NCBI RefSeq assembly: GCF_001050275.1
Contig: NZ_BBYA01000015.1
Location: 1 to 64,000, forward strand
Direction: 5' to 3'
Source: Leptolinea tardivitalis
GTDB lineage: Bacteria; Chloroflexota; Anaerolineae; Anaerolineales; Anaerolineaceae
DNA: 64,000 nt
The notes beneath the pieces were generated by a model that saw only the letters and a program-made list of their open reading frames with translations, did no database searches and was not told the DNA's origin. Shown in pieces: positions 41,598-58,002 of this stretch (position 1 is its first letter; the number at the start of each line of letters is the position of its first letter). A program made the translations under genes and the position numbers.

Positions 41598-42587
41598 TCA
41601 CTTTGGAAAACGTATGATGAATAACGCGCCGCCTTGCGGGTGATTTTTGGCGGTAATCGTCCCTCCCTGTCGGGTGACAATCATTTTGCAAAGAGCCAAT
41701 CCAATCCCATATCCTTTAGCGTTGGTCTTTTTTCCCCGATAAAACCTGTCAAACAGGCAAGGTAAATCTTCTTTATCAAAGCCCGCACCGCTGTCGTGGA
41801 TGGTAATCTCAGAAAAAAGCGGGTTGTCAATGCAAACTATCTCAATCTTCCCTTTCTCACCTATGCTTTCCATGCAATTCTTCAGAATGTTTTGAATGGC
41901 TTCCGAAAGCCAACCAGAATCACCCTTAATAATCATCCCTTTGGGGATGTCTATCAACACATCAATATCATGGAGATCTAACGGGATCAAGAACGGGCGA
42001 AGGGCTGCGTCTATCAGGTTATAAATATCAATCGGCCCATTTTGGAACACAACAATACCTGCGTCTAGACGGGACAATTTCAATAATGAAGTAACTAACC
42101 AATCCATACGAACTACCAATTCCTCTGTTTCCCGCAGGAATGCATTCCGTTCGTTTTCATCAGGGTTATTTGCCAACAAAGAAAGAATAAGGCTTGCCGA
42201 TGTGAGCGGGGTTCGGAGTTGGTGGGCGATGTCGGCCAGCGAATCAGCAAGATGTTCTTTTTCCTTTTTCAGCGTTTCATTTTGCTCCCGAATACGTTGC
42301 AGCATCTTTGTTATTTCACATTTAAGAATGGATAGTTCACCCTCGTCTGATTCACCAATATCCATGTGGTCCAAATTATGAAGGACAATATCGATTTGGT
42401 CTGAAATTCGTGCAATGCTTTTATATCGGGCTCTGGTAAATATAAAAAATGCCGTACCAAATGCTGCGGCAGAAGATATTGAAAGAATTCCCGCCGCTGT
42501 ATTAATAGCAAATCCAAACAAGACAGAAATGGCAGTTAGGAAGGAAAATAAGATGGCGAACTGCCGAAATTCTTTATTCCGAAGCAT
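41598..42587 (-). CDS. Sensor histidine kinase, short intramembrane-sensing type
   Basis: 329 residues: two transmembrane helices at the N-terminus with almost no external loop, a coiled linker, then the phospho-acceptor His in LADIAHQLRTPLTS. HATPase motifs follow (N box LSEAIQNILKNCMES, HDSGAGFDKEDLPCLFDRFYRG, GYGIGLALCKMIV). Lack of an external sensor suggests that it perceives its signal in the membrane or through the neighbouring transporter, as in Bce-like modules. It overlaps the response-regulator gene by 14 bases. Confidence 0.92.
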   Translation of the reverse strand: MLRNKEFRQFAILFSFLTAISVLFGFAINTAAGILSISSAAAFGTAFFIFTRARYKSIARISDQIDIVLHNLDHMDIGESDEGELSILKCEITKMLQRIREQNETLKKEKEHLADSLADIAHQLRTPLTSASLILSLLANNPDENERNAFLRETEELVVRMDWLVTSLLKLSRLDAGIVVFQNGPIDIYNLIDAALRPFLIPLDLHDIDVLIDIPKGMIIKGDSGWLSEAIQNILKNCMESIGEKGKIEIVCIDNPLFSEITIHDSGAGFDKEDLPCLFDRFYRGKKTNAKGYGIGLALCKMIVTRQGGTITAKNHPQGGALFIIRFPK

Positions 42588-43263
42588 TCCCGCCCCCCAA
42601 TCGATATCCTGTCCCGCGAACTGTCAGAATGATTTTCGGGTTAGCTGGCTCTTCCTCAATTTTTTCTCGCAAACGTTTAATATACACAGTTAATGTATTG
42701 TCATTAACAAACTCACCGGCCGCGTCCCATAATTCGTCAAGCAGCCTCCCCCGCGTGATAATACTTTTTGGGTTGTTAATAAATACGAGCAATAAGCGGT
42801 ACTCCAATGCTGAAAGAAAAACCTCTTTCCCGTTTTTTTTCACTACACCATTAACCGTATCGACATGAAGCCCGTGAATTTCAATATCCGATCCGGAATG
42901 CCCGGTTTTTCGCAGTGCAGAGCCAATTCGTGCAATCAATTCACGAGGACGAAAAGGCTTGGTGATATAGTCGTCTGCACCCATATTCAACCCGGTTACA
43001 ACACTGCCTTCATCGCCCGAAGCTGTCAGGAAAATAACTGGAATATCTTTCTTCATCTTTATTTCCGTACAAACCGTAAAGCCGTTCCCATCCGGCAAAG
43101 AAATATCAACCAATGCCAGATCAAATTTATTCTCGGCAAGAACAGTCAGAGTCTCGTTCCGCGTAGACGTGTGGGTAACAGCAAATCCCTCTCTGCGGAG
43201 TAAAAGTATAAGATTCTTGGCGATTTCTTCATCATCTTCAACAAGAAGTAATCGTGGCATCAA
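42574..43263 (-). CDS. OmpR/PhoB-family response regulator
   Basis: 229 residues. The receiver domain has acidic VEDDEE, phospho-acceptor Asp in LALVDISLPDGNG and the conserved Lys in ITKPFRPREL. The C-terminal winged helix shows the PhoB-type signature (LSALEYRLLLVFINNPKSIITRGRLLDELW, NTLTVYIKRLREKI). It is first in the four-gene operon with the kinase and ABC transporter, which it most likely controls. Confidence 0.94.
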   Translation of the reverse strand: MMPRLLLVEDDEEIAKNLILLLRREGFAVTHTSTRNETLTVLAENKFDLALVDISLPDGNGFTVCTEIKMKKDIPVIFLTASGDEGSVVTGLNMGADDYITKPFRPRELIARIGSALRKTGHSGSDIEIHGLHVDTVNGVVKKNGKEVFLSALEYRLLLVFINNPKSIITRGRLLDELWDAAGEFVNDNTLTVYIKRLREKIEEEPANPKIILTVRGTGYRLGGGNASE

Positions 43264-43917
43264 TCAGTCCTCCGATTCATTAACCATTCTTGAAAGTCGT
43301 CCATGTCTTCGTCACATAATTCATTATTGGAAAAAGTAGGAATACCAACCATATAAGCAATTATCCTGAAAGCATCAGTTTACCACGCCAGATATTGTGC
43401 CAAGACAGGGCTCAAGCAATCACTACCGTTCCCCTTTGACAGGCTCGCGGCTCGATAATGCTAACAAAATCATCTGATGGCAAAACCGCATTACTGAAAC
43501 TACCTGAAAAGATAGGCAAGCTCTTCTTATGTTACTTATTTGTTCCACCATTCTTGAATTACATTTCAATATTGTTCAGATGATCGGTGATGTGGTCACC
43601 CTCAGGATAATGCGAGTAGAAACCAACAATTCTTCACCTGAGAATCCCTAGAAGATCATTCTGGAAGTCTATAAAGATCAAATGGATAATTTAATAGACA
43701 ATTCCCTAAAGCACATTATTCAGATTGCCGAAATTCATTTTTCACTTGCTTATCTGATTCACTTCTACCAGTGATAAAAGCCAAAAGTTACTCGTAGCTG
43801 TTGATATCTACATTTTTCAAGAGATATCAAGGCCTTCTTGAAATACTATCCAGTCAATAGAATTTTTGTTTACATGATTTTATGATATTCGTTACTTCCA
43901 TAAGAAAACAAAAAAGG
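43264..43917. other. 650-base region without an intact gene, upstream of IS copy 1
   Basis: No complete gene is visible. Short open stretches (about 43457-43575 and 43651-43789 on the plus strand, the latter reading KIILEVYKDQMDNLIDN) could be the remains of a decayed gene, but no family is recognisable. The first bases must contain the promoter of the operon starting at 43263. Confidence 0.4.
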
Positions 43918-43957
43918 TGTCAACATCCCAAAATTAGTACCACTTTAAAGTAGAAAC

Positions 43958-44920
43958 TCAGGCATGAATTGATGCATATTGGTACGGTGATAAGCCCTTC
44001 AATGACTCATGGGGCCTAATGACATTGTATTCTTCCAACCATTGTTCTGAAATTTCTCTCACCTCATTCAGTGAATTGAATAAATAGGCATCCAGAATAT
44101 CTTCCCGGTAGGTCCGGTTGAATCGTTCAATATATGCGTTCTGAGCCGGTTTGCCAGGCTGTGTGTGAGCCAATTGAACGTTGTGTTCCTGTGCCCATTC
44201 CTCCAACCGATGGGAAATAAATTCCGGCCCATTGTCCATCCGTATTTGCTTGGGGCAGCCACGCCATGAAATGATCATCTCCAGAACCCTTATTACGCGT
44301 TCTGCGGGTAAAGAAGTGTCCACTTCGATCCACAATGCTTCTCGGTTGAAATCATCCAGAATATTCAATGTTCTAAACGCTCTTCCGCTGGCCAGGCTAT
44401 CGCTCATAAAATCGATTGACCAGCAGTGGTTGGCCACCTCTGGTTGAATCAGTGGCAGCGGAATTCGTTTTGGTAGTCGTTTTTGGGGCTTGATTTTTAG
44501 ATTTAGGCGTAAATCACAATAGACCCGTCGAATTCGCTTGTGATTCCAACCATGAGCCTCATTTCTCAAATAATCACGCATTTTCCCGAATCCCCATCGA
44601 GGCTTTCTCCCTGCCAGTTCTAGCAAAGCCTTTGCGATCTCCTCGTCCTTGCTCTTTTTTGCCTGATACCGGTACACGGTTCGGCTCAATTTCAGCATCC
44701 CACATGCCTGACGCTCGCTCAGTCCATACTCTTGCATAGCATATCTCGCCAAATCCCGGCGTGCATCAGGCTTTATAGTTTTTTTTGAACAATATCCTTT
44801 AACGCTTGATGTTCCAGACTCAAATCGGCAAACATCCGTTTGAGGCGCTGGTTTTCTTCTTCCAATTCTTTTAATCTTCTCAGCGAACTGGCATCCATTC
44901 CGCTGTACTTTGATTTCCAC
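43958..44920 (-). CDS. IS3-family transposase OrfB (expressed as OrfAB by frameshift), copy 1
   Basis: The catalytic half has an rve core: Asp in [11 protein letters not shown], Asp in [11 protein letters not shown] and Glu in [16 protein letters not shown]. An HTH_21-like segment precedes it. The frame is open up to 44920, but its first part overlaps orfA in another frame. The genuine product is probably the OrfAB fusion, made by -1 slippage at an A8 run (about 44779-44786; orfA reads CAA AAA AAA CTA, orfB TCA AAA AAA ACT). Confidence 0.9.
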
Positions 44921-45039
44921 TTGTAGAAGGCACTTTTGCTAAATCCGTGCTTCCGGCTTAAATCTTCAACCGGTATCCCTGATTCCGCCTCTTTGAGGAT
45001 CGTCACGATCTGACCTTCTGTGAACTTCATCCGCTTCAT
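44773..45039 (-). CDS. IS3-family transposase OrfA, copy 1
   Basis: 88 residues from ATG 45039 (AGGAG eight bases upstream). HTH domain [21 protein letters not shown]...[19 protein letters not shown] is followed by a leucine-zipper-like coiled coil ([22 protein letters not shown]). It binds the element ends and supplies the N-terminus of OrfAB. Confidence 0.9.
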
Positions 45040-45159
45040 GTGGTCTTCTCCTGGTCTGATTTTGCCAGAAGTTTCCACTTCTTGCTGGTACTATTTTAGG
45101 GGATGGTTACCAAGGGTATATATCTCTTTAGAGTTTTGTTCTAATGTCCTTGGGGAAAA

Positions 45160-46044
45160 ATGAAATCGTGCATCGTAGCTACATTAGGAACTGAAGCCCA
45201 GGTAATTACCACTGTAACTGATTGCCTTCTGGAATTAAAGAATAATATCTCGCAGGTTTATATTATTCATACGTCTACGTCGGATGGTTCCATTAAAATT
45301 GCTCTTGATCGATTAAAAAAAGAAATAAAAACATACCCTGGTTATAAAAATATCAAGTTTGATTTTTGTCCTATAAAATTATCTTCTGGTGAAAGTATTA
45401 CTGATGTTGACTCTATTGAATCGGGTCAGGCAGGCTTCCAGCTGATATATCGAACAATTTTAGATGCAAAAAGAAATGGATTTCAAATATTTCTATGCAT
45501 TTCTGGGGGCAGGAAAAATTTATCTCTCTTTGGAATGTCAGCAGCTCAATTATTATTTGACGATAATGACAGACTTATCCATCTCTATTCTTCACCTGAT
45601 TTTGTCTCAAGTAAGGAGATGCATCCAAGAAATCGTTTTGATGCCAACCTTGTAGAAATTCCTGTACTTCTTTGGAGCAAAATTTCTCCGGCTTATTTGT
45701 TGCTAAATGACGTGGTTGATCCTCTTAAAGCAATCGAAATATATAAGAACATACATTTAGAAGAGAGAATAGAAAACGGCAGCGTGTTTCTGCTTTCCAT
45801 TCTTTCTCCAGCCGAACAACAGGTTGTAGAATGGCTGGTCATTAGCGGATTGACAGATATAGAGATAGGCAAAATTTTGCATATCTCAGATCGAACCGTT
45901 GAAAGTCATATACGATCAGCCCGCATCAAAGCAGAAGACTATTTTCAGATTTCAACGATCAACCGAGCCGGTCTAATTGCACTTCTTCAACCAGCGGTAA
46001 TCTTTATCAAAGGAGGTAAATTCGGGGAAAATCCGGATGTTTAA
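45160..46044 (+). CDS. CARF (NE0113/Csm6-type) protein fused to a LuxR-type HTH
   Basis: 294 residues. Residues 1-180 resemble the NE0113 CARF family of type III loci: VATLGTEAQVITTVTDCLL (residues 6-24), VYIIHTSTSDGSIKIAL, and the ligand-loop ISGGRKNLSLFGMSAAQLL (114-132). Residues 216-278 are a GerE/LuxR helix-turn-helix (LSPAEQQVVEWLVISGLTDIEIGKIL, SDRTVESHIRSARIKA). The protein should bind cyclic oligoadenylate and DNA, which would make it a signal-responsive transcription factor; this is inferred from the domains. CARF proteins with ArsR/MarR-like domains (Csa3) are known, and a LuxR-type partner is unusual. It is the first gene of the type III locus, 48 bases after IS copy 1, which may have cut off older upstream sequence. 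Confidence 0.82.
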   Translation: MKSCIVATLGTEAQVITTVTDCLLELKNNISQVYIIHTSTSDGSIKIALDRLKKEIKTYPGYKNIKFDFCPIKLSSGESITDVDSIESGQAGFQLIYRTILDAKRNGFQIFLCISGGRKNLSLFGMSAAQLLFDDNDRLIHLYSSPDFVSSKEMHPRNRFDANLVEIPVLLWSKISPAYLLLNDVVDPLKAIEIYKNIHLEERIENGSVFLLSILSPAEQQVVEWLVISGLTDIEIGKILHISDRTVESHIRSARIKAEDYFQISTINRAGLIALLQPAVIFIKGGKFGENPDV

Positions 46045-46069
46045 TAATTCAACATGTCATAAGATAGAT

Positions 46070-46125
46070 GCGTTCACACCCATCAGGCAGGGGAAACAGG
46101 GGGTACGGTCTGGTGGGTGTGACGC
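46070..46125 (+). promoter_or_regulatory. Large inverted repeat before cas10
   Basis: GCGTTCACACCCATCAG (46070-46086) faces CTGGTGGGTGTGACGC (46110-46125), 16 pairs with one G-T and one bulge, separated by 23 G-rich bases. There is no T tract, so it is not a typical terminator. It sits between the CARF-HTH gene and cas10, 27 bases before the cas10 start, and could be an operator or an RNA control element. Confidence 0.55.
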
Positions 46126-46152
46126 TAAGAACATTCATAGATGGGAGGGTTA

Positions 46153-48633
46153 ATGGAAGAATACATTTTACAAGCAGCTTTGGCTGGTCTGATCCATGAT
46201 GTGGGGAAAATTCTTCATCGGGCGGATGAAAAACCAAAAGCAAAACACGCAGAATATACGCAAAGCTTCATAGACCTTCTTCCCGCAAGATACAGAATGA
46301 TGTGTCGTGTATCTGAATACCATCACAATCCCGATTCAGGCGATGCAAGTTCTCTTCCGGTGACGTGGCAGGTTTCCCTGGGTGATAAACTTTCTGCCGG
46401 TGAGAGGGCAGATGAAAGATCTGAAAAAGATGGAAATGATTTTCCGATGCAAATGGTCTCCATCTTTGATCGCATAAACCATCCCTCGATCTTAAATGAT
46501 GCAAACGGCACCCATTATCTCTCGCTGGAACCTTTGAAATTAAGCAAAGACCACATCTTTCCACAAAATGCACCTTTGCCAAAAGCTCAACAGCATCATC
46601 TTTACGAGAGCTTGAAAGCAGAACTTATAAAAATAGGGCAATGTGACCAGGACGACCCTGAAACATATATTGAAACCTTTCTGTCTGCTCTGAAGGAGTT
46701 TGCCTGGTCAGTTCCCTCTGGCTATTACTACAACCTCCCGGATATTTCTCTCTATGATCATTCGAGAATGACCGCCGCGCTGGCTGTCTGTGTGGCTGAT
46801 TGGCCAATTGAGAAATTACGATCCATTCATGGCGCAGTTGTCAGGAAATGGCTTGCAGATAAAGACCCTCAAAAGAATAAGCTTCAACCAGAAGATGTAG
46901 AAAATTTAAAAACTCCATGTGCTCTGCTTGTAGGTGGTGATCTTTCTGGTCTACAGAAATTTCTTTATACCCTCTCTTCCTCTGAAGCAGCAAAGACACT
47001 ACGTGGACGCTCATTCTATCTTCAGTTATTAACAGAAGCGGTTATGCGCCTGGTTTTACGAAGGGTTGGAATTCCGGGGACGAATGTGGTCTATTCAGGT
47101 GGTGGTCATTTTTATATTCTGGCTCCTGTTTCTTCTGAATCAAAGCTTGTATCGGTTCGAAAGGAAATAGGCAGAATTTTGACCAGGGCACATGGTTCTG
47201 AGCTCACCCTTACTTTAGCCTGGACAAAAGTACCTGCAGAAGGTTTTTCGGTGAAAGAATTTCCGAAATACTGGGGAGACATGCAATCGGCCTTGAGTAA
47301 AGCAAAGTTGACACCATTCTCAGAACTGGAAGAAGATCTTTATGATCTCATCTTCAAAATCAAGGAGACTGGCGGCAACCGGGATCATGTTTGTTCAATT
47401 TGTGGAAATGAGAACGATTCTGTTCATAAAGATGCCGATGCCAAAGAAATCCAGCTATGTTCCCTTTGTCAATCATTTATTAAAGAGTTGGGCACCCAAC
47501 TGCCGATCTCTAGCCAGATAATTCTGGGTTTTGGTGAACCTGTAGAATTACCGACATCTGGTTTCACCGCGTTAAATATTTTATCGGCTCTGGGTATGGA
47601 GGTTCATTTTAGTGACGGTAAAAATGAAGTGGATTTCAGCTCTCAAAAACAAATTTTTGTGGAAAAAGCCTGCGTTTGGGAATTAAATGATATTACGTCG
47701 AAGAAAGTGAAAGTTACAGGCGTCCCCTGTTGGAGAACCAGACACTACACAGTAAACCAGATTCCCAAGGAAAAAGATCAGCCTATTACATTTGATGATC
47801 TTCAGAAGAAGGCTGAGGGAATCCACAGACTGGGTGTATTAAGGATGGATGTGGATAACCTGGGTAGTCTTTTCGAAAAAGGACTTCGAGATAAAAAAGA
47901 TCAGTCTCTTGGTTCGCTCTCACGGTTAAGTACCCTTAGTTTCTCACTTTCACTCTTTTTTGAAGGATGGGTTGGAAAGATCTGCTCCACCTACAAAGAT
48001 CGAATCTATGCCGTTTATGCCGGCGGGGATGATTTGTTCCTGATTGCTCCGTGGAATGATGTCCCCGGACTTGCCCTTGCAATTGTGGATGACTTTCGCG
48101 CTTTTACGGGAAATAATCCTAATCTGCACATTAGCGGAGGAATGGCATTCATCCACGGGAAATACCCGATTTATCAGGCGGCGGAAGATGCCGGTGAAGC
48201 CGAAAACCTGGCAAAATCTTTTGAAGGTAAGAACGCATTCGGTTTCCTTGGAAAGGCCTACTCCTGGGATCAATTTAAAGAACTAGACAGGATACATAAA
48301 TCTATTCGAAATCTTGTCACATCGAAGGATGAAAATGGCCTTACCGGACCACAGGCGCTCATTGGGTTGCTCAGGGAATTGGGTGACCAAGCGGAAGACG
48401 CCCGTAAGAAAAAAGGAAAACCTGTTTATGGTCCCTGGATCTGGCGGGGTGAATACACTCTCACTCGCATGATCGAACGGGAGAGAAAGAGCCATCCAGA
48501 ATTAGCAGATTCATTAGAAAAACTAAAATCTGACCTTCACAAAGATATGTATATGAGAATTGAAGATTACGCCGTTGCTGCCCGCTGGGCGCAGCTTGAA
48601 ATCCGTAAAAATCATCAGGAGGATAAAAAATGA
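46153..48633 (+). CDS. cas10: Cas10/Csm1, type III-A effector with HD and cyclase motifs
   Basis: 826 residues from ATG 46153 (GGGAGGG upstream), rather than 46141. The N-terminal HD nuclease has His15-Asp16 in GLIHDVGKILHRAD and downstream SEYHHNP. A zinc-binding element CSIC...CSLC follows the first palm domain. The second palm carries the cyclase motif GGDD at residues 624-627 (YAGGDDLFLIAPW). Both activities look intact: target-activated DNA cleavage and synthesis of cyclic oligoadenylates. It leads the csm operon and overlaps csm2 by four bases. Confidence 0.96.
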   Translation: MEEYILQAALAGLIHDVGKILHRADEKPKAKHAEYTQSFIDLLPARYRMMCRVSEYHHNPDSGDASSLPVTWQVSLGDKLSAGERADERSEKDGNDFPMQMVSIFDRINHPSILNDANGTHYLSLEPLKLSKDHIFPQNAPLPKAQQHHLYESLKAELIKIGQCDQDDPETYIETFLSALKEFAWSVPSGYYYNLPDISLYDHSRMTAALAVCVADWPIEKLRSIHGAVVRKWLADKDPQKNKLQPEDVENLKTPCALLVGGDLSGLQKFLYTLSSSEAAKTLRGRSFYLQLLTEAVMRLVLRRVGIPGTNVVYSGGGHFYILAPVSSESKLVSVRKEIGRILTRAHGSELTLTLAWTKVPAEGFSVKEFPKYWGDMQSALSKAKLTPFSELEEDLYDLIFKIKETGGNRDHVCSICGNENDSVHKDADAKEIQLCSLCQSFIKELGTQLPISSQIILGFGEPVELPTSGFTALNILSALGMEVHFSDGKNEVDFSSQKQIFVEKACVWELNDITSKKVKVTGVPCWRTRHYTVNQIPKEKDQPITFDDLQKKAEGIHRLGVLRMDVDNLGSLFEKGLRDKKDQSLGSLSRLSTLSFSLSLFFEGWVGKICSTYKDRIYAVYAGGDDLFLIAPWNDVPGLALAIVDDFRAFTGNNPNLHISGGMAFIHGKYPIYQAAEDAGEAENLAKSFEGKNAFGFLGKAYSWDQFKELDRIHKSIRNLVTSKDENGLTGPQALIGLLRELGDQAEDARKKKGKPVYGPWIWRGEYTLTRMIERERKSHPELADSLEKLKSDLHKDMYMRIEDYAVAARWAQLEIRKNHQEDKK

Positions 48634-49022
48634 ACATTCAAACAATTATTACCGCCGATCCAGATGGGCAGGAACTGGTAAAACAGGCTGAAATCCTTGG
48701 GAAAAACCTTAAGGATGGCAACGTTACAAAATCCCAAATGCGGTCAATTTTTTCTGAAGCCCGTCAGATTGAGGCTTCCTGGGGAAAAGGGAATTCGGCA
48801 CTTCGGTTAAGCATGTTAAAACCAAAGCTGGCTTATCAAAAAGCGCGCCAACCGAAAAACGCAAAAACAGCTTTTGGTGATTTGGTATTAGATCTAACAC
48901 AAGGAATTGATGCAGTTCTGGATTCCAAGGTCTCTGTTGAAGAACGTGATAAACGTTTCAAGAAACTGATGAATTATTTCGAAGCTGTTATTGCCTACCA
49001 TCGCGCTGCCGGTGGCCAATAA
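48630..49022 (+). CDS. csm2: Csm2, small subunit of the type III-A complex
   Basis: A 130-residue helical protein: NVTKSQMRSIFSEARQIEASWGKG and LRLSMLKPKLAYQKARQP match the Csm2 core, with a C-terminal helix VEERDKRFKKLMNYFEAVIAYHRAAGG. It lines the complex opposite the Csm3 backbone. Normal length; ATG overlaps the cas10 stop (ATGA). Confidence 0.93.
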   Translation: MNIQTIITADPDGQELVKQAEILGKNLKDGNVTKSQMRSIFSEARQIEASWGKGNSALRLSMLKPKLAYQKARQPKNAKTAFGDLVLDLTQGIDAVLDSKVSVEERDKRFKKLMNYFEAVIAYHRAAGGQ

Positions 49023-49042
49023 ATCTCTGGGAGAAATTCAAA

Positions 49043-49843
49043 ATGACAACCAACATTCAACTTTATGGACGTGTCGTAATCACGGCAAATATTAATACGC
49101 TAACCGGCTTGCACATCGGGGGTACTTCGGCGTCAATGGAAATTGGTTGTGTTGACAATACCATCATCCGCAATCCGATCAATGACCAACCTTATATCCC
49201 TGGTTCCAGTTTGCGCGGAAAGATGCGTTCACAGACAGAAAAGATTCTGGGTTTGGAACAAAATCAATCCATTGGACAGGATGTTACCATTCACTCCTGC
49301 CAGGAACCGGAAGATTTTAAAAAGAATGGCGGATGCCCGGTCTGTACGATTTATGGATTACCCGGCGAACGGGATTTCAATACAACATCACGGCTTGTTG
49401 TACGGGATGTGTCCATGACACCGGAGAGTGTAGAAAAACTGAAACACTTGCAAACCTATCTTCCTTTCGTGGAATGCAAGACAGAAGTAGCTATAGACCG
49501 GGTGACCAGCAAAGCAACACCTCGTTCAATGGAACGCGTTCCTGCTGGAACGGTATTTGGACCTGCAGAACTTGTTTATTCCATTTATGAAGTGAATGAT
49601 TTTGAGCGTCTATCTTATGTTTTTGAAGCCCTCCAGTTGGTTGAAGATGATTATCTGGGTGGGTCAGGATCTCGTGGTAGTGGAAAAATCCGGTTTGAAT
49701 CGATAAAACTTACCGCGCGTTCTAAAAAGGATTACGGTAACGCCGTAGATCTGGGCACTTTCCCATCCATTCAGGAACTGAACAATGCGCTCAAATCAAT
49801 AACAGCAAAAGCGAAGGAAACCATTCTTTTGGAGTCAAAATGA
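49043..49843 (+). CDS. csm3: Csm3, backbone RAMP and target-RNA nuclease
   Basis: 266 residues. The RAMP N-terminus TGLHIGGTSASMEIGCVDNTIIRNPINDQPYIPGSSLRGKMRS contains Asp38, which aligns with the catalytic Asp of Csm3 that cuts target RNA every six bases. A family-typical GGCPVCTIYGLPGE (zinc-binding Cys) and the glycine-rich GGSGSRGSGKIRF loop are present. It overlaps csm4 by four bases. Confidence 0.96.
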   Translation: MTTNIQLYGRVVITANINTLTGLHIGGTSASMEIGCVDNTIIRNPINDQPYIPGSSLRGKMRSQTEKILGLEQNQSIGQDVTIHSCQEPEDFKKNGGCPVCTIYGLPGERDFNTTSRLVVRDVSMTPESVEKLKHLQTYLPFVECKTEVAIDRVTSKATPRSMERVPAGTVFGPAELVYSIYEVNDFERLSYVFEALQLVEDDYLGGSGSRGSGKIRFESIKLTARSKKDYGNAVDLGTFPSIQELNNALKSITAKAKETILLESK

Positions 49844-50859
49844 ATCTGATAACCTGGGAATTCACCGGCGGTCCGTTTCATTTTGGCCGGCGGGGATTAG
49901 GACAGGAGGTTACTGCCGCCTGGTTCTCTTCTGACTCCCTGTTCTCCGCGCTTATTTCCCGCCTGGCTGCGATTGAAGGGGCAGAAGCTATTGACGCATT
50001 CATGGAACCTTTTGTCAACAATTCTGCTCCATTTATCCTATCCTCTCTGTTTCCCCGTGTTGGCAGACTTTACTTCTTTCCGGTTCCAGTTGCCCGTGGA
50101 AAACGGGAATTAAAAGAGAACATCTCGTATAAAGACCTGAAGAAGGTTCGTTTCCTCTCAGAACGGCTTTTTATGCGAGTCATCAAAGGCGAAGATCTTG
50201 TAGATATTTATCCTAAAGCTGTCAAAATGCAAAATGGAATCTTACTGGCGGATCCTGATGAAGCCAGGGATGTTCCTTCGCAGGTATGGAAAGAAGATAA
50301 ACGTCCACATGTCACTCTGGACCGCCTGACTCAAAAATCCATGTTGTATTTCACGGGTGAGATTTATTTCGCACAGGACTGTGGTTTTTGGACGGCAGCG
50401 GATATCCGCGAGGCATCATATCTTCCAACGTTAAGTTATCTTTTAAATGAAGTGGGAGAAGCTGGTATTGGAGCAGACCGCAGCACTGGTTTAGGTAGGT
50501 GCGCCGTGGTACGAGGAAAAAGCATTGACCTTCCCGAACCGAAATCAGACGGGTTGATGGTCACATTGGGTCGGTTCCTGCCCAAAAAAGAAGAGACCCA
50601 TACCTTTATGAAGGATGGTTGCGCTTATAAACTGGAAACAATCGGCGGATGGATCACTTCACCGCAGGAGATGAATCAGCGGAGACGGATCATTCGCATG
50701 GTTTCTGAAGGCGCTGTACTTGGTTCTCTCCCTCATCCATGTGGAGACCTTGTAGATGTACGGCCGGTATATGACGGGAAAGCCGGTTTGGACCACCCGG
50801 TCTGGCGCAACGGGCAAGTACTCGCATCCGCATATGTACCTGCAATGAAAGGTGGTTAG
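49840..50859 (+). CDS. csm4: Csm4, crRNA 5'-end binding RAMP
   Basis: 339 residues. The N-terminal RAMP fold (WEFTGGPFHFGRRGLGQEVTAAWFSSDSLFSALISRLAA), the family FPRVGRLYFFPVPVAR stretch and the Gly-rich GEAGIGADRSTGLGRC motif identify Csm4 (Cas5-like). It caps the crRNA handle next to Cas10. Tight spacing (two bases) to csm5. Confidence 0.94.
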   Translation: MNLITWEFTGGPFHFGRRGLGQEVTAAWFSSDSLFSALISRLAAIEGAEAIDAFMEPFVNNSAPFILSSLFPRVGRLYFFPVPVARGKRELKENISYKDLKKVRFLSERLFMRVIKGEDLVDIYPKAVKMQNGILLADPDEARDVPSQVWKEDKRPHVTLDRLTQKSMLYFTGEIYFAQDCGFWTAADIREASYLPTLSYLLNEVGEAGIGADRSTGLGRCAVVRGKSIDLPEPKSDGLMVTLGRFLPKKEETHTFMKDGCAYKLETIGGWITSPQEMNQRRRIIRMVSEGAVLGSLPHPCGDLVDVRPVYDGKAGLDHPVWRNGQVLASAYVPAMKGG

Positions 50860-50861
50860 AA

Positions 50862-51992
50862 ATGACTACTTTTGATATTAAATTGACAACGAAATTTCCG
50901 GTGCATATCGGTGATGGAACAACCTTGCATAATAAATTCGATTTTATCTCTGACGACAGATTTACCATGCGGTTGAATGAAGAAACAATCCTGAAAAAGT
51001 ATGGTTCTCAGTTGGTTCCAGGGAGCAACGGTTTTTACCGAGCACCGGGTGATTTATTATCCGCAAATGATAAGAATGACAGCCAATTCTTCCGCTACAT
51101 AATCCCTGGCACACCCCATTCTGTGAAAGAATACTCAGAACTCAAATCATGCATCAAAGACGTATATGACCGGCCGTATATCCCCGGTTCATCTCTGAAA
51201 GGTGCTATCCGAACCGCTCTGGCATGGGCAGGGTTTCAAGAAAGAAATCTCAAACCATCGAAGGATGTTCTATTTCAAAAAAGAGAAGAAGCAGGGCAGA
51301 TATTTGAGAGAGAACTTTTCGGGGTTGATTCTAATCAAAGTATTATGCGTGCTTTGCAAGTCTCGGATCTAACCATAGACAGTGAATATGATAAACCAGG
51401 CGGTGGATTGAAAGTTTTTAATGCACAGGTGATCACAGAAAAGTCTTCTGATTCTCTTATTCAAATTGAAGCCATCAGAAGAGGTGTTGGCTTTTATGGA
51501 ACTATCAAAGTTGATAGCTTTTTATTTCCTGAGGTGAAAAATTCATCACCCTATGCATTGGAGGTTAAAAAGAAACTTGGATTTGGAAAACGCGCCGATT
51601 GGTTTACTACAATTTGCGAACGAACCACTCGTAATAGCATAGAACGAATTGAAAGATTGCTAGAATGGTTCTCTAAAGTTGATGGCAGTGAAAAAGTAAC
51701 GAATTATTACAATGACCTGTTAAATTCAAAAATTGGTGAGAATGAAACCTTGATACAGCTTGGTTGGGGAACCGGCTGGGATGGCATGACTTTTGGTGCC
51801 TTGCTTCAAGAAGACAAGTACTTATTTGAGCAAATTGTGAGCAAGTTCAACATGTCCAAACTCTCAAAATCAGGTATTCACCGTCAACCAGGAGAAAAAT
51901 TCCCAAAATCCCGCAGAGTTATCACCCATAATGGTGCAAGTTACGCCCCTCTGGGTTGGGTAATGGTGGAATTCAAGGAGCGAAAATCATGA
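50862..51992 (+). CDS. csm5: Csm5, terminal RAMP of the type III-A complex
   Basis: 376 residues beginning FDIKLTTKFPVHIGDGTTLHNKFDFI, with PYIPGSSLKGAIRTALAW (RAMP Gly-rich motif) and a C-terminal GWGTGWDGMTFGALL and RRVITHNGASYAPLGWV. Csm5 caps the crRNA 3' side and recruits maturation nucleases. Its stop overlaps the csx1 start (ATGA). Confidence 0.94.
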   Translation: MTTFDIKLTTKFPVHIGDGTTLHNKFDFISDDRFTMRLNEETILKKYGSQLVPGSNGFYRAPGDLLSANDKNDSQFFRYIIPGTPHSVKEYSELKSCIKDVYDRPYIPGSSLKGAIRTALAWAGFQERNLKPSKDVLFQKREEAGQIFERELFGVDSNQSIMRALQVSDLTIDSEYDKPGGGLKVFNAQVITEKSSDSLIQIEAIRRGVGFYGTIKVDSFLFPEVKNSSPYALEVKKKLGFGKRADWFTTICERTTRNSIERIERLLEWFSKVDGSEKVTNYYNDLLNSKIGENETLIQLGWGTGWDGMTFGALLQEDKYLFEQIVSKFNMSKLSKSGIHRQPGEKFPKSRRVITHNGASYAPLGWVMVEFKERKS

Positions 51993-53203
51993 TCCTTTTC
52001 ACTTTCCTTGGGGCTGGATCGTATAACGAAACTACATATACCCTGGGGGAAGAAAAGCGGGTATCTTGTTATTCTCCTGCTGCAGCGGCTCATCTTCTTC
52101 ATGTGACGTCTGTAACCGCGTTCCTGACAGATGAAGCAGAAGCAATCCATCGGGAAGGGCTGGAACAGGCCCTTCCCGACGGATGCCAATTGAAATGTGT
52201 CCATATCCCCTACGGGCGCAATGAAAATGAATTCTGGGAAATATTCCATGCTCTTAGCCAGGAAGCCTCATATGCCGGTGACCAGGCCTGGGATGTGACC
52301 CATGGTTTTCGCAGCCTTCCATTGCTAAGCATGCTTACATTGACTTTCTTGCGAAGCGGTTTGGGTATAAAGCCAGTGCGCGTACTTTATAGCTTATATG
52401 AGAAGAATGCGGATTCCTGCCCAATGATAGACCTTGCACCCATGTTGAATCTGATGGACTGGGCTTCTGCCGCCGATACCTTTACCCGTAGTGGTGATTC
52501 TCGCCCCCTCGCCTCCATTTTAAATAACATACGCAATGGTTTTATGCGTGAAGGGCCAAAAACCAAACAACAACAGATCGAAATGGCACCGGTTACGGAT
52601 TTAGCCGCGACCATGGAGGATCTTTCCATGTCGCTGGCTTTGCTGCGTCCGAGTTTGATCACAGACGCTGCCAAAAAATTACACGCAGTACTTCCGGATT
52701 CAGAAAAAGCCCTTGAATTTTCTTCTCGTACTCACCCCATTTCCCTGTTACTGCCGCGTATCGGCTCAGCCTATAAACCCCTCGTCCTAGAAGATGGTTC
52801 CATATCCTCACAGCTGGCCTCCTGGTTGAACCTCATCGGCTGGTATATCGACCGCGGATACTATGCACAGGCTGCCACTCTCGAAAGAGAATGGTTAATC
52901 TCATGGCTGATGGAGCGCAAAGGGAAAAAGGAATTGCTTCTTAATGTGGAAGATCGTGAAGCTATGGCCAGAATTCTTACCCGTGAAGCAGATGACTTTA
53001 TTCGTTCTAAAAAAGAACCGGTCGAACTGGCGGATATTCCCAACATCAGGAATATTTTTGGCCCCTGGAAAGGTTTCTTCGAGATCCGCAATGATCTGGA
53101 TCACGCCGGTATGCGGCCTCAATCCAAACCGCCCGCGGCAATTATCGCGACAATCGAAAGAACGTTTGCCATGCTGAAAAACCTGCCGCTGGAAGTAGAA
53201 TAA
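51989..53203 (+). CDS. csx1: Csx1-type CARF-HEPN ribonuclease
   Basis: 404 residues from ATG 51989 (AAGGAG upstream, overlapping the csm5 stop); the frame opens further upstream at 51956. The CARF half carries the DxTHG motif (WDVTHGFRSLPLL, Asp102-Gly106) of the TM1812/Csx2 group. The C-terminal HEPN domain has the RNase motif R-x4-H (FFEIRNDLDHAG, Arg367-His372). Cyclic oligoadenylate from Cas10 should switch on collateral RNA cleavage. Confidence 0.9.
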   Translation: MILFTFLGAGSYNETTYTLGEEKRVSCYSPAAAAHLLHVTSVTAFLTDEAEAIHREGLEQALPDGCQLKCVHIPYGRNENEFWEIFHALSQEASYAGDQAWDVTHGFRSLPLLSMLTLTFLRSGLGIKPVRVLYSLYEKNADSCPMIDLAPMLNLMDWASAADTFTRSGDSRPLASILNNIRNGFMREGPKTKQQQIEMAPVTDLAATMEDLSMSLALLRPSLITDAAKKLHAVLPDSEKALEFSSRTHPISLLLPRIGSAYKPLVLEDGSISSQLASWLNLIGWYIDRGYYAQAATLEREWLISWLMERKGKKELLLNVEDREAMARILTREADDFIRSKKEPVELADIPNIRNIFGPWKGFFEIRNDLDHAGMRPQSKPPAAIIATIERTFAMLKNLPLEVE

Positions 53204-53207
53204 AAAC

Positions 53208-54182
53208 ATGTTCCTTCTTTCCCTGGTAGGCGAACAGCCTATACCCGTCTTGATTCCATTATGGCAGCAATGGACTACCCGACCGTTTTCCAGGTCTTCG
53301 GGAGCATCCCCTTTCTCCTGCATACAATTTGCCGGTTCTAAAAACACGCTGCCAGTAATTGCCCACCTTGAAGTGATTATTCGCAATAAACCCGGCTTTG
53401 AAGACGTAGAGATCCGCCCTGCATTGACGATTGATGCATATGACATCCAATCTACCAGACAGGCGCTCGAAGAAGCAACAAGTAGTGCGGAGGCGGATGG
53501 ATTTCGTAGTGTTCTCAACATCACCGGCGGCACGAAATTAATGACTCTGGCTGCGCTTCAGGCAATGAAAAGAAAATCATCCATCAGCGATAACCTTCTA
53601 GAAACAAATATGTTGTATATCAACACAGAAAAAAATCGCCTGATTTTTCTCAACGCAGACGGGGAAGAAACCGGCAGTGAGGAAATATGTGTCAATCTGA
53701 CCATCGCCGAGTATCTTCAAGCGCATGGTATTGAGGTAAGTGATAACCAGGCGTTTAACCCCAAAGGTGCCAATAATGACGCCCTCCCGCCTAAAGCGGG
53801 AGATGCTCTTGAAGAACGTGTGACCTCCCTTGCAATAGATTCGGGGTATTTTGATGAAGTCCGCCGCAATGTGTACATCCGTAAACCGGTGCCTGACGGA
53901 AAAACTGTATCCAATGAGCTGGATGTGGTGGCCATTTCCAATGGCAGGCTGGTGGTTTGTTCTTGCAAAGCCGGGATAAATATCAAAAAAGAAATGCTAT
54001 ACGAATTGTCTTCCCTTTCTCGCCGTGAAGCTGCCGGTATTTACTGCGGCAAGGTCCTGGCACTTGGGCAGGAAGACATTCCGCCGGGAATCCTTGAAAG
54101 GGCACGCGCCGATCACATTCGGCTGGTAACCGGTTCTGAGATAAACCGGATTGCCTTTATCATGCACCTGGAAACCAGATAA
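53208..54182 (+). CDS. Can2/Card1-like CARF nuclease (DUF1887 family)
   Basis: 324 residues. The N-terminal CARF domain has SLVGEQPIPVLIPLWQ and NITGGTKLMTLAALQAM (residues 104-120). The C-terminal PD-(D/E)xK-like domain reads NELDVVAISNGRLVVCSCKAG: Glu237, Asp239 and Lys254 are in place, but the position of the usual catalytic Glu is Ser252. Relatives with ISCK at this place exist as far as I recall, so activity cannot be excluded. The family cuts DNA and/or RNA when cyclic oligoadenylate binds. Four bases separate it from csx1. Confidence 0.85.
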   Translation: MFLLSLVGEQPIPVLIPLWQQWTTRPFSRSSGASPFSCIQFAGSKNTLPVIAHLEVIIRNKPGFEDVEIRPALTIDAYDIQSTRQALEEATSSAEADGFRSVLNITGGTKLMTLAALQAMKRKSSISDNLLETNMLYINTEKNRLIFLNADGEETGSEEICVNLTIAEYLQAHGIEVSDNQAFNPKGANNDALPPKAGDALEERVTSLAIDSGYFDEVRRNVYIRKPVPDGKTVSNELDVVAISNGRLVVCSCKAGINIKKEMLYELSSLSRREAAGIYCGKVLALGQEDIPPGILERARADHIRLVTGSEINRIAFIMHLETR

Positions 54183-54209: not shown

Positions 54210-54596
54210 ATGATCATCATCAATTTTTCCCACCCACTTTCTGAAAACCAGATTCATCAGATCGAAACACTTACCCCGCATAAGGTGGAACAGGTTATCA
54301 ACCTGCCAGTGCAATTCGATAATGACCTGCCCTACGCTCCACAGGTCAAACAGTTAGCTGACCGTATACCCCTCGATAGTGAGACGCTTCAAACCGCGAG
54401 GATTCTCATTAACCCGCCGGCGCTCAACTTCATTACCGCCATGTTACTGGCCGAACTACACGGGCGCATGGGTTTTTTCCCGCCGATTCTTCGCCTCCGT
54501 CCTGAACCGGATAGTATGCCTCCGACCTTCGAAGTCTTCGAAATCATAAATTTGCAGCATATTCGGGAAGAAGCCCGCAAAACTCGTGAGAAATGA
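54210..54596 (+). CDS. csx15: CRISPR-associated protein Csx15
   Basis: 128 residues starting MIIINFSHPLSENQIHQIETLTPHKVEQVI, with LINPPALNFITAMLLAELHGRMGFFPPILRLRP and FEVFEIINLQHIREEAR, which match Csx15 from memory. Csx15 is found in type III loci and has been proposed to be a ring nuclease that degrades cyclic oligoadenylate; the activity is predicted. The position after two CARF effectors fits an off-switch. RBS is weak (GGATATTTC); 28 bases after the previous stop. Confidence 0.75.
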   Translation: MIIINFSHPLSENQIHQIETLTPHKVEQVINLPVQFDNDLPYAPQVKQLADRIPLDSETLQTARILINPPALNFITAMLLAELHGRMGFFPPILRLRPEPDSMPPTFEVFEIINLQHIREEARKTREK

Positions 54597-54614: not shown

Positions 54615-55457
54615 ATGACGAATAAGACCGAATTGTTATCCATTGTCTTATTGATAAAAAAAACAACAGATGCCACTGACGGCCAGCCAGTCTGGTGGGG
54701 ACGTGCCGCGCATGCCTTCGTGCTGGACCTTATCCGGCAGGCTGATGAAAAGCTGGCGGCGGAGATTCATGACAGTGACAGCCTTAAGCCTTTCACAGTT
54801 TCATCGCTGATCCCGGTTAGACCGAAGCAGGAGGAAAATGGCTGTCTTTACCGTCTACGGATAACCGGCCTGACTGCCGCCGTGTGCGCCGTTTTGGAAG
54901 ATTCTCTGCAATCTTCAGGCTCATTAGCCCCGGGAAAAGTAATTGAACTGGATTACCAGCCTTTCACCATCCAGGAAGATGGTGACACACCCTCCGTGAG
55001 AGAGTGGCACGGATGCGGCCGGTATGACTTACTGGCGACTTCACGGCTGGGTTCAGAGGCTCAACCGCCCCGCCGCTTCGGCTTTGTGTTCACCAGCCCT
55101 ACAGCCTTCCATCAGGCAGAAAAGACAATGCCGCTGCCTCTGCCGGGATTGGTGTTTGGCAGCCTACTCGAACGCTGGAACCGGTATTCTCCCATTCAAT
55201 TCCCGCCTGAAGCCAGGCGTTATGCAGAAGAATGCCTGGGAATCTCAGGGTTTGATCTGCACAGCCGGCCGACGCGGGTGAAGAACGGCGGCTTGCGGCT
55301 CGGCGCTATTGGAGAGGTGAGCTTCACCGCATTGACGTATGACCGCTACTGGCAAAGTGTCCTTGATGTGTTGTCGGAGCTGGCGGTATTCAGCGGTGTG
55401 GGTGTGATGACTTCGCAGGGTTTCGGGCAGTGCCATCGAAAGGACGAACAGAAATAA
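54615..55457 (+). CDS. cas6: Cas6 pre-crRNA endonuclease
   Basis: 280 residues. It ends with the Cas6 C-terminal pattern GAIGEVSFTALTYDRYWQSVLDVLSELAVFSGVGVMTSQGFGQC, including the Gly-rich loop. Relevant N-terminal His is in WWGRAAHAFVLDLI. It processes transcripts of the 36-nt-repeat array, leaving the 8-nt ATTGAGAC tag. The higher GC of this gene and its neighbours from 52000 on suggests a partly different origin from cas10. Confidence 0.9.
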   Translation: MTNKTELLSIVLLIKKTTDATDGQPVWWGRAAHAFVLDLIRQADEKLAAEIHDSDSLKPFTVSSLIPVRPKQEENGCLYRLRITGLTAAVCAVLEDSLQSSGSLAPGKVIELDYQPFTIQEDGDTPSVREWHGCGRYDLLATSRLGSEAQPPRRFGFVFTSPTAFHQAEKTMPLPLPGLVFGSLLERWNRYSPIQFPPEARRYAEECLGISGFDLHSRPTRVKNGGLRLGAIGEVSFTALTYDRYWQSVLDVLSELAVFSGVGVMTSQGFGQCHRKDEQK

Positions 55458-55468
55458 CAGGGGGAAAG

Positions 55469-56479
55469 ATGCCACCGGTTTATGTTGTTCAACAGAATTC
55501 GCGGATTCGTATCCGTAACCGGCGTTTGCAGGTGGAGAACGGAGAAGAGGATAACGCAGAGGTTCTCACCAGTATTCCACTGGCCCAGGTAGATCAGGTT
55601 GTGTTGTTTGGAAATATTAGCCTGACCACTCCAGCAATTAACGCCCTGCTTGAAAAAGAAAGTGATGTGGTTTTTCTCACTTCAGATGGTGATTTCCGAG
55701 GAAGATTAGTGGGTGCCGTCACTCCGCATGTTCCTCTCCGTCGTGCACAGTATGAACACACCGGTAATCCTGAATTTGTATTACAGACAGCCAAGGGGAT
55801 TCTTAACGCAAAAGTGTCTCACCAGCGTACTCTTCTTATGCGCCATATGAGAGATTTCCCCGACCCAGTTATCGCTTCAGCCATTGATCAATTGGGAAAT
55901 TGTTTATTATCCATATCCCGAAAAAACACTCTATCATCGTTACTTGGTCTCGAAGGAGCGACAACGGCGGGGTATTTCAGCGGATATCGGCGTTTCTTCT
56001 CATCGGAATGGAATTTTAACGATCGCAACCGCCGACCACCAGCTGATCCCGTAAATGTCCTTCTATCATTCGGTTATACTCTGCTGGCTCAAATCGCCAA
56101 TGGAGCAATTCAGACTGTAGGAATGGATCCGTTTGCAGGAATTTATCACCAGGTAGCCTACAACCGCCCGGCACTCGCTCTGGATCTGATGGAAGAGTTC
56201 AGGCCGGTTGTGGATGGCGTTGTTATGTGGTGCTGCCGCAGCGGGCAGATCACACCTGCTGATTTTTCCCCTGGACCCGACGAAAAACCAGTTATTCTTA
56301 ATCAACAGGGATGCAGGCGGTTTATCGCAGCCTTTGAGGAACGTATGGATAAACCATACACACATCCCATTGCGAAACAGAGACTGCCAATTCGCCAGTG
56401 TGTCATTGAACAGGCGCGCCAACTTGCCCGACGTTTTCAGGAAAACCGCCCCGGTTATCAGGGAATGGGTTTTCATTAG
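55469..56479 (+). CDS. cas1: Cas1 of the type III-A locus
   Basis: 336 residues from ATG 55469 (GGGGGAAAG upstream); the frame opens at 55430. Cas1 landmarks: GLEGATTAGYFSGYRRFF (metal-binding Glu), NDRNRRPPADPVNVLLSFGYTLL, and YHQVAYNRPALALDLMEEFRPVVD. It is only distantly similar to the I-C Cas1 at 29080, so the two loci have separate adaptation modules. No cas4 lies here. Confidence 0.95.
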   Translation: MPPVYVVQQNSRIRIRNRRLQVENGEEDNAEVLTSIPLAQVDQVVLFGNISLTTPAINALLEKESDVVFLTSDGDFRGRLVGAVTPHVPLRRAQYEHTGNPEFVLQTAKGILNAKVSHQRTLLMRHMRDFPDPVIASAIDQLGNCLLSISRKNTLSSLLGLEGATTAGYFSGYRRFFSSEWNFNDRNRRPPADPVNVLLSFGYTLLAQIANGAIQTVGMDPFAGIYHQVAYNRPALALDLMEEFRPVVDGVVMWCCRSGQITPADFSPGPDEKPVILNQQGCRRFIAAFEERMDKPYTHPIAKQRLPIRQCVIEQARQLARRFQENRPGYQGMGFH

Positions 56480-56499
56480 TTTTCATTAGAGGTAATGGT

Positions 56500-56784
56500 A
56501 TGGACCGTTTCTTTTACATACTTGCTTATGATATTTCAAATGACAAACGCCGTACAAAAATTGCAAAGCTCATGGAATCGAGCGGTACACGAGTTCAGGG
56601 AAGTGTCTTTGAAGCCTGGTTTTCACCGAAAGAACTGGATAAGGTGGTGCAGCGTTCAAAAAGAATACTTGTTGATAAAGAAGATTCTCTACGTGTGTAC
56701 TTTCTCTGTGAAGATTGCCGCAAAAAAGTCAGTCTGTATGGTAAAGGAAAAGTGACAGAAAAACCTGGATTGGTGATTATTTGA
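56500..56784 (+). CDS. cas2: Cas2 of the type III-A locus
   Basis: 94 residues: MDRFFYILAYDISNDKRRTKIAKLMESSGTRVQGSVFEAWFSPKELDKVV, with the Asp in AYDIS and the usual C-terminal strand (EKPGLVII). GAGGTAATGGT precedes the ATG. It is the last protein gene before the array leader. Confidence 0.95.
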   Translation: MDRFFYILAYDISNDKRRTKIAKLMESSGTRVQGSVFEAWFSPKELDKVVQRSKRILVDKEDSLRVYFLCEDCRKKVSLYGKGKVTEKPGLVII

Positions 56785-56884: not shown

Positions 56885-57953
56885 GTTTAAAACAATAAAT
56901 GCCCGTCAGGGCATTGAGACTCATCCAGCCATGCGGGAAGAGTACTGTCTTCATCCCAGTTTAAAACAATAAATGCCCGTCAGGGCATTGAGACATAACC
57001 CATGATGCGGGTATATCCACCCTTGGTCTGGTAGGTTTAAAACAATAAATGCCCGTCAGGGCATTGAGACTAAATTTTGAGAAATGAATCACATCAATCT
57101 GGTTTATCACAAGTTTAAAACAATAAATGCCCGTCAGGGCATTGAGACTCAGCCAGGCTGTTATTTATTAGCTTTTCCAATTGTGTTTAAAACAATAAAT
57201 GCCCGTCAGGGCATTGAGACCAACTGAACTATTTTCCTATGCTTCAACTGAAGTTTAAAACAATAAATGCCCGTCAGGGCATTGAGACCTCCATCAATTC
57301 GGCATTCGAATGACCTCTCTTATTCTTTTGTTTAAAACAATAAATGCCCGTCAGGGCATTGAGACAAGGATTTTCTTGCCTTTGTCATCCGTCATTGTTT
57401 TTGTTTAAAACAATAAATGCCCGTCAGGGCATTGAGACTCGGAATCAACTTCCTGACTAGCGAAGCCTGCGCCCTTTGTTTAAAACAATAAATGCCCGTC
57501 AGGGCATTGAGACATCAACTGTTTAGCGGCGGCCTGCAATACGTCTGCTGGTATAGTTTAAAACAATAAATGCCCGTCAGGGCATTGAGACTCATTGGTG
57601 GATTTTACCAGTTGCATGAGGATTGTTTAAAACAATAAATGCCCGTCAGGGCATTGAGACCATCAGCTTCACTGTTGTACTTCATAAGTACAGTAAGTTT
57701 AAAACAATAAATGCCCGTCAGGGCATTGAGACGGACCTCAACAGCCCGCTTTGAATGGACATAATCGATGGTTTAAAACAATAAATGCCCGTCAGGGCAT
57801 TGAGACATCCTGGTTTCTGGCGGATATATCGCGGAGGCGGAGATAGTTTAAAACAATAAATGCCCGTCAGGGCATTGAGACCAAAATCTCCTTTAACTCG
57901 CCCTCTAACTCTAAACTGTTTAAAACAATAAATGCCCGTCAGGGCATTGAGAC
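56885..57953 (+). CRISPR. Type III CRISPR array, leader-proximal part: 15 repeats
   Basis: Fifteen 36-nt repeats, GTTTAAAACAATAAATGCCC then GTCAGGGCATTGAGAC, with 14 spacers of about 35-40 nt. The inner GCCC/GGGC palindrome and the 3' end ATTGAGAC (an ATTGAAAC-like 8-nt tag) fit Cas6-processed type III crRNAs transcribed on the plus strand. The repeats are identical to those at 59520-59924. Confidence 0.97.
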
Positions 57954-58002
57954 CCGTTGAAAGAAATTCTGGAAAAGATAGCTATATGATGAAAGAAGAA
58001 AA
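57954..58002. other. Junction between the array and the inserted segment
   Basis: 49 bases after the last repeat of the first part. No degenerate repeat is present, so the array does not decay here. An RBS-like GAAAGAAG precedes the small gene at 58003. Confidence 0.5.

Follow-up and report, generated by a model that had tools for sequence, protein, structure and literature searches.

A CARF–LuxR fusion protein at the head of a type III-A CRISPR locus of Leptolinea tardivitalis, a probable cyclic-oligoadenylate-sensing regulator of the csm operon

Several described systems resemble the protein considered in this report. Csa3 of the Sulfolobales (Csa3a and Csa3b) joins a CARF domain to a DNA-binding helix-turn-helix (HTH), binds cA4, and is associated with a promoter palindrome, CAPPa (TCCC-N8-GGGA), that is located upstream of the acquisition genes and of CRISPR leaders (PMC8699464). 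According to a review from 2022, Csa3 is the only non-nuclease CARF effector to have been characterized experimentally (PMC9704534). The NE0113 family was predicted in 2014 to consist of CARF–HTH transcription regulators; the main text of that paper speaks of a winged HTH (wHTH) without the words "LuxR" or "GerE", and its available part names no operator or target (PMC4012209). RtcR, whose CARF domain is divergent, activates transcription in bacteria (PMC7790460).

Here we describe a gene found at positions 45160–46044 (plus strand) of a 64,000-nucleotide stretch of DNA from Leptolinea tardivitalis, hereafter the window. Its product has the CARF domain of the NE0113/Csx14/CARF3 group (PF09623, PADLOC CARF3), and the nearest CARF fold and cA4 pocket are those of the Crn1 ring nucleases (Sso2081, Sso1393), from which it differs by the absence of the serine of motif I and by a LuxR HTH in place of a helical lid or a wHTH. 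Like the LuxR/NarL/FixJ regulators EL222, VpsT, and FixJ, it carries a four-helix HTH behind a sensor domain, and its proposed site would have a lux-box-like position; VpsT, from the title of its structure entry, binds the cyclic nucleotide c-di-GMP. The sensor is here a CARF domain, whose signal would be expected to come from CRISPR surveillance. Csa3, in contrast, has a MarR-like wHTH and belongs to archaeal type I-A systems and their acquisition genes, whereas the system described here is bacterial and type III-A, with the csm operon as the predicted target and a GGG-N4-CCC palindrome accompanied by a bacterial -10 box. RtcR differs in being an AAA+ activator that works with sigma-54 (PMC4012209), in its association with RNA repair genes, and in having no link to type III CRISPR. 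CARF–HTH regulators are thus known already; what differs here is the LuxR/GerE output, the bacterial type III-A setting, and the element at the csm promoter. We found no published description of the LuxR fusion together with the element, and the CARF classification of 2020 (NAR gkaa635) may describe the fusion.

The gene begins with ATG and encodes 294 amino acids. The preliminary description had read it as an NE0113-like CARF region followed by a LuxR-type HTH, and the profile searches agree. The Pfam family Cas_NE0113 (PF09623) matches residues 14–158 with 97.5 bits (E 1.2e-27; gathering cut-off 23), and GerE (PF00196) matches residues 214–254 with 32.4 bits (gathering cut-off 23.5); the models for region 4 of sigma-70, a related HTH, score below GerE, and there is no MarR match at E 1. 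The PADLOC model CARF3 (PDLC01851) spans residues 2–282 at 2.9e-96. The family itself is therefore already catalogued by PADLOC, under a name that mentions no HTH. The curated cut-offs of TIGR02584 (NE0113; 24.3 versus 80.65 bits) and TIGR03642 (Csx14; 55.4 versus 90.35 bits) were missed, and no catalytic domain was found among the Pfam, NCBIfam, and PADLOC profiles.

The structure predicted by AlphaFold2 from 103 sequences (mean pLDDT 94.2, pTM 0.86) runs from a Rossmann-type CARF domain through a long helix to four further helices, and this bears out the CARF fold that had been anticipated. The CARF domain occupies approximately residues 1–170 (45160–45669), as judged from PF09623, the fold match to Sso2081, and the residue counts given below; the linker helix of the model covers residues 188–214 (45721–45801), and the four-helix LuxR/GerE HTH covers residues 215–283 (45802–46008), as judged from PF00196, matches to PDB profiles, and the fold. 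The closest structural match of residues 3–169 of the model is the CARF domain of the ring nuclease Sso2081, with a Z of 19.4 and an rmsd of 1.7 across 147 residues. The C-terminal 109 residues, modelled separately with a pLDDT of 90.2, have EL222, FixJ, and VpsT as their closest matches (Z 10.9 to 9.5; rmsd 1.9 over 81 residues for EL222) and also resemble NarL. Because the folds are similar, chains of sigma region 4 follow closely (Z 8 to 9); Foldseek returned nothing for the C-terminal part at E 0.001 or better (best E 0.03). The sequence profile of the family leads at one end to Sso2081 (5e-13) and at the other to VraR, GerE, and NarL (about 1e-8). These results confirm that the open reading frame encodes a CARF domain and a LuxR/GerE HTH with a long helix between them; the recognition helix of the window protein extends from about S243 to K257.

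The ligand site of the CARF domain comprises D82 and G116-G117-R118-K119, and motif I reads G10-T11-E12. In Sso2081, Asp75 and Arg105 contribute most to the binding of cA4, and Ser11 of motif I, a motif described as the signature of the degrading CARF domains, matters for cleavage; in the orthologue Sis0455 the same serine seemed not to be critical (PMC10018336). By family profile alignment and structural neighbourhood, Asp75 and Arg105 correspond to D82 and R118, which are conserved in 99 and 100 of 103 members, respectively. Motif II is also kept, as GGRK in the window protein and with lysine (68) or arginine (35) after R118 in the 103 members. At the serine position of motif I (Gly-Thr-Ser), residue 12, the same 103 proteins have glutamate (63), lysine (21), or glutamine (19) and never serine or threonine. 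A pocket that is kept and a motif-I serine that is lost lean toward a sensor rather than a ring nuclease but, given Sis0455, are no proof of one. The most likely ligand is cA4, which also fits the neighbouring Csx1 and Card1 effectors, as relatives of these use cA4 (PMC9704534). One relative, on plasmid pRMAR01 of Rhodothermus marinus (L031), bears the NCBI name "CRISPR-associated ring nuclease"; its motif I is G-E-Q, without serine.

The regulator gene is located directly upstream of a type III-A operon of the order cas10-csm2-5-csx1-card1-csx15-cas6-cas1-cas2, followed by a CRISPR array, with all of these features on the plus strand. The cas10/csm1 gene (46141–48633; TIGR02578) keeps both the HD and the GGDD motifs, in agreement with the earlier placement of the regulator at the head of a type III-A locus with an intact Cas10. 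It is followed by csm2, csm3, csm4, and csm5 (48630–51992; NCBIfam), a Csx1-type CARF–HEPN effector (51956–53203; PADLOC CARF2--CARF_HEPN, 6.8e-92, with an RNDLDH motif), a Card1/Can2-type CARF–PD-(D/E)xK effector (53208–54182; PF09002, PF23400, PADLOC), csx15 (54210–54596; NF040560, 1.2e-49), and cas6, cas1, and cas2 (54615–56784; Pfam, PADLOC). The array (56885–59924) has 21 repeats and is split by an insertion sequence at 58107–59314. A second copy, at 43908–45115, is 99.67% identical to the first over 1208 bp; from their two overlapping transposase ORFs, we take both copies to be IS3-like. As the second copy ends approximately 45 nt before the start codon of the regulator gene, it may have changed the expression of the regulator in the Leptolinea strain. 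Beside the CRISPR locus, at 42574–43263 on the minus strand, a stretch of 59 residues matches the SduA/DUF4263 defence family (PADLOC, 8.9e-7).

The family was matched in 57 of 400 Chloroflexota genomes at E 1e-6, with the genome of the window included in the sample. A pattern scan of one genome per species over 84,980 species yielded 94 relatives, and the best 80 of these 94 span Chloroflexota, Bacillota, Bipolaricaulota, Latescibacterota, Poribacteria, and others. Together with 30 loci of the Chloroflexota search and a single one of the two Rhodothermus plasmids, these 80 make up the 111 loci used below. Among 104 aligned members, the window protein included, the CARF model is matched by all 104 and GerE by 91 at E 0.01, while MarR and MarR_2 are matched by two and four, respectively; the pairing of CARF with GerE is far beyond chance. 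A cas10 gene like that of the window starts on the same strand 23–464 nt past the stop codon in 44 of the 111 loci (40 of 107 once four duplicates are removed), a screen that used the cas10 of the window as its only query and so misses distant cas10 genes, and in which many contigs end early. In loci from Bacillota and one Armatimonadota (L088, L089, L090, L093, L094, L095, L098, L099, L105, and L109) the CARF–LuxR gene abuts csx15, the match to which starts between -13 and +9 nt from its stop codon. This adjacency ties the CARF–LuxR gene to the unsolved Csx15.

A conserved element, TAGGGGAAAACCCGCATGAC, was found at the junction of the regulator gene with cas10. The first hint of it came from a comparison by eye of the junctions of close relatives, and an EM search was then run without that knowledge. 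With 35 junction regions and 60 starts, this search returned TAGGGGAAAACCCGCATGAC with an LL of 326.9, compared with 71.2–84.8 for eight dinucleotide-shuffled sets (15 starts each). The resulting matrix scored at least 17 in 36 of 104 scanned loci (the 111 loci minus four duplicates and three cut loci), most of the 36 having helped to train the matrix, and in 3 of 3000 random 480-nt regions drawn from 66 loci. Leave-one-out matrices from which near-identical sites were also omitted recovered the same place in all 36 cases, which represent 26 distinct site sequences, and the element was also found in loci outside the training set (L043, L044, L050, L051, L056, and L064) and, in L046, beyond the stretch used for training. 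It is present in 31 of the 40 loci with cas10 behind the regulator gene; the other five of the 36 lie on contigs that end within 354 nt. Named strains that carry it include Bellilinea caldifistulae (L034), Ornatilinea apprima (L039), and Thermanaerothrix daxensis (L045). In Anaerolinea thermolimosa (L043) the csm-adjacent regulator ends early, at 168 amino acids; the element is kept with a score of 28.7, and the same strain holds a second family member (L075).

The element has the build of a promoter with an upstream palindrome. The sequence TAnnnT occurs exactly 18 nt past the element in 28 of the 33 sites with enough sequence, compared with 0 to 3 sites at the other offsets from 8 to 31. An imperfect palindrome, GGG-N4-CCC, extends from about -47 to -38 relative to the predicted start; its centre falls at approximately -42.5 by virtue of the fixed 18-nt step to the -10 box, taken as -12 to -7. 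The conserved part of the EM motif reaches to about -50 and includes the palindrome. In the relatives the -35-like box is ATGACA, near the consensus and separated from the -10 box by a 17-nt spacer. For comparison, the lux box, an inverted repeat of 20 bp, has its centre at -42.5 (PMC3376562), and the geometry predicted here fits it. The element lies inside the regulator ORF in 7 loci, across its stop codon in 11, and after the stop codon in 18; several of the copies within the ORF encode the tail GENPHD or a similar one. Because the element may be inside the end of the ORF, over the stop codon, or beyond it, the conservation acts on the DNA and not on the peptide.

In the window the element, and thus the proposed operator, is TCGGGGAAAATCCGGATGTT at 46022–46041 on the plus strand, within the 3' end of the regulator gene. 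Its score is 20.1, and no other place in the 64 kb reaches 11; with the leave-one-out matrix the score is 14.2, still the top place of its junction. The -35-like hexamer is ATGTTT (46037–46042), which aligns with ATGACA of the relatives, and the -10-like hexamer is TAAGAT (46060–46065), 18 nt past the element, with the predicted start at about 46072. This version has diverged, with GGATGTT where the relatives have GCATGAC, and it is common to a Leptolinea relative with 72% protein identity. No match of at least 13 was found on the same strand within 500 nt upstream of the regulator genes, a region shorter than 150 nt in some loci, and autoregulation through the same site was rejected on this ground.

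The preliminary description had proposed the segment 46070–46125 as a gel-shift probe, which misses the likely site within the 3' end of the gene. An operator at 46070–46125 was rejected, as the conserved element is upstream and this segment falls in the predicted transcribed leader of cas10. It forms there a predicted hairpin (plus strand) with a 15-pair stem located by search, a folding z of -3.9, and two G-runs in the loop. In the relatives the sequence of the stem varies, the stems average 8.4 pairs compared with 6.4 in shuffles, and 20 of 32 loops have at least two G-runs; the mean folding z is only -1.05, with 10 of the 32 below -2, and Rfam gave no match at the leader. These values are suggestive of a conserved RNA, and the hairpin could possibly provide a second control at the level of RNA.

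The element follows mainly one clade of the regulator and its recognition helix. When mapped on a protein tree with 97 members, the presence of the element needs 5 changes, compared with 28.7 when the labels are shuffled. In one part of the tree, which has a support of 84/72 so that the branch is not firm, 34 of 38 rows carry the element and four are without it; one further element-bearing row, L107, is found elsewhere. In the aligned regulators with the element S243, R245, and E248 of the recognition helix are present in 35, 35, and 34 of 35 proteins, respectively, and in the 68 other members these residues are present in 45, 15, and 8. Three genomes hold two family members, of which only one has the element (L043/L075, L040/L074, and L037/L081). 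An additional 29 cas10 loci were examined, and in 18 of these the stretch covered contains no CARF–LuxR gene. The element scores 5.1 or less at 16 of these 18, the other two having less than 60 nt upstream; the 16 are not all independent (L115 and L116 share their best site), and their cas10 genes are also more distant. The other 11 loci have a CARF–LuxR gene; two have the element (L124 and L139, the latter from the same genome as L007), and the remaining nine are without it, their best-matching query coming from other clades. EM searches for the operators of other clades, with and without forced palindromy, returned mostly coding sequence and no clean palindrome. A TACCA/TGGTA palindrome upstream of the Bacillota members appeared in one EM run, was not recovered in another, and is not claimed. 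Just after the stop codon of the regulator gene, a KSB1 relative (L065) has a long palindrome that is almost perfect, a candidate terminator or operator of a different clade.

The earlier expectation that the protein binds DNA and is not a nuclease is supported by the conserved LuxR recognition helix, the lack of a catalytic domain among the profiles searched, the absence of the motif-I serine from all 103 members, and the conserved element adjacent to the gene. It had also been suggested that the regulator acts on its own locus or on distant genes. The evidence points mainly to the first, the neighbouring csm operon; for the second, two perfect matches away from the junctions in 30 other genomes suggest distant targets in some hosts. 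In these 30 genomes (one held twice) GGGWWWHYCCGCATGAC has 62 matches with at most one mismatch, compared with 10 for the reversed pattern. By their coordinates, 24 of the 62 are junction sites (16 perfect and 8 with one mismatch), which leaves 2 perfect matches and 36 with one mismatch, one of the latter being a duplicate genome copy. Both of the perfect off-junction matches carry the promoter build described above, as TATAAA or TATATT follows at 18 nt. One is located in G104 (L172, near 6087), a genome that shares an identical regulator with Bellilinea caldifistulae (L034), and precedes a gene for a 109-residue protein. The other is on the reverse strand in the Anaerolinea MAG of L037 (L173, near 1912), before a gene for a 94-residue protein, approximately 10 kb from the junction of its genome and behind a cas6 match. 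Neither protein matches a Pfam family; in both, hydrophobic segments can be seen by eye, and the two are candidates for transcriptionally induced effectors.

All 36 one-mismatch places were inspected and none has TAnnnT at 18 nt; those that score at least 17 include L174, L177, L183, L186, L196, L201, L205, L206, and L210. In the 3.69 Mb genome from which the window is taken, the window version of the element occurs once at up to three mismatches, at 46021–46040. The generic pattern of the clade occurs there at 45 places at the same threshold, compared with 10 for the reversed pattern; the seven places with two mismatches, which were the ones inspected, score 7.8–13.9 and lack TAnnnT, and a further 37 have three mismatches. 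The regulator thus looks mainly local, with the neighbouring csm operon as its target and small additions in some hosts, and weaker distant sites may also exist.

Taken as a whole, we consider it probable that the protein is a cyclic-oligoadenylate-sensing transcription factor that regulates its own csm operon, most likely as an activator, and that it acts at the element. In the proposed mechanism the neighbouring Cas10 would make cyclic oligoadenylate, most likely cA4, once a crRNA meets the RNA of an invader. A dimer of the CARF domains would sense this signal, and the long helix would relay it to the pair of LuxR-type HTH domains, which would bind GGG-N4-CCC at the cas10-csm promoter next to the -35 box. 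The bound regulator would most likely recruit RNA polymerase, such that the first alarm would raise the levels of the Csm complex, Csx1, and Card1 in a positive feedback. The more specific proposal, that a CARF–LuxR dimer activated by cA4 switches on the csm operon and in some hosts also small membrane-protein effectors, is a tentative one, to which we would give slightly less than an even chance. For the predicted gating by cA4, Csa3 serves by analogy as a warning, since two studies found its promoter binding to be independent of cA4 (PMC8699464, PMC8844856).

Three other explanations have to be considered, and these are compatible with one another and with the activator proposed above. The protein could act as a repressor or dampener, with the free protein holding the csm promoter low until cyclic oligoadenylate releases it, or with the ligand-bound protein shutting the operon. 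This has the DNA-binding part in common with the preferred reading. Several CARF effectors are known to degrade their own signal and so keep it in check (PMC12409355), and an element that abuts a near-consensus -35 box in the relatives could allow occlusion; a centre at about -42.5, however, the position of the lux box (PMC3376562), would keep the -35/-10 core unobstructed, and we regard repression as unlikely. The element could also be an ordinary strong csm promoter that is unrelated to the CARF–LuxR protein. It does have -35-like and -10-like boxes at a 17-nt spacing, similar sequences elsewhere in the genomes are commoner than the reversed pattern, and, with a -35 box near the consensus in the relatives, the promoter may work without an activator. 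An ordinary promoter would, however, sit poorly with conservation that extends to about -50 and takes in the palindrome, with the absence of the element before the 16 cas10 genes that lack the regulator (although those cas10 genes are more distant), with its association with a particular regulator clade and recognition helix, and with the lack of a -10 box at most of the places elsewhere. The chance that the element has nothing to do with the protein is therefore small in our estimation; another regulator could bind the imperfect palindrome instead.

A ring nuclease is compatible with DNA binding too and corresponds to the name given by NCBI to the Rhodothermus relative. The HTH would then be structural or auto-inhibitory, as was reported for the wHTH of an orthologue of Sso1393. 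The CARF domain is nearest to that of Sso2081, there is a match to Csx14 (TIGR03642) below the cut-off, and motif II (GGR-K/R) is kept. Against this stand the glutamate, lysine, or glutamine in place of the motif-I serine in every one of the 103 members, which is no proof given the results with Sis0455 (PMC10018336), and an HTH that retains the LuxR invariants and whose recognition helix tracks the element. We consider degradation of the ligand to be quite improbable as the function of this protein. If the protein is indeed a sensor, this would correct the name of the Rhodothermus relative.

Little is known about how bacterial type III operons are switched on, or about the effect of cyclic oligoadenylates on bacterial gene expression. 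The family described here provides a widespread and concrete case, with a named protein, a 20-bp site, and a promoter, that makes feedback in type III immunity directly testable. If the activator proposal is correct, type III immunity would have a gene-expression arm beside its nuclease arm, and clade-specific operators would keep paralogous circuits apart.
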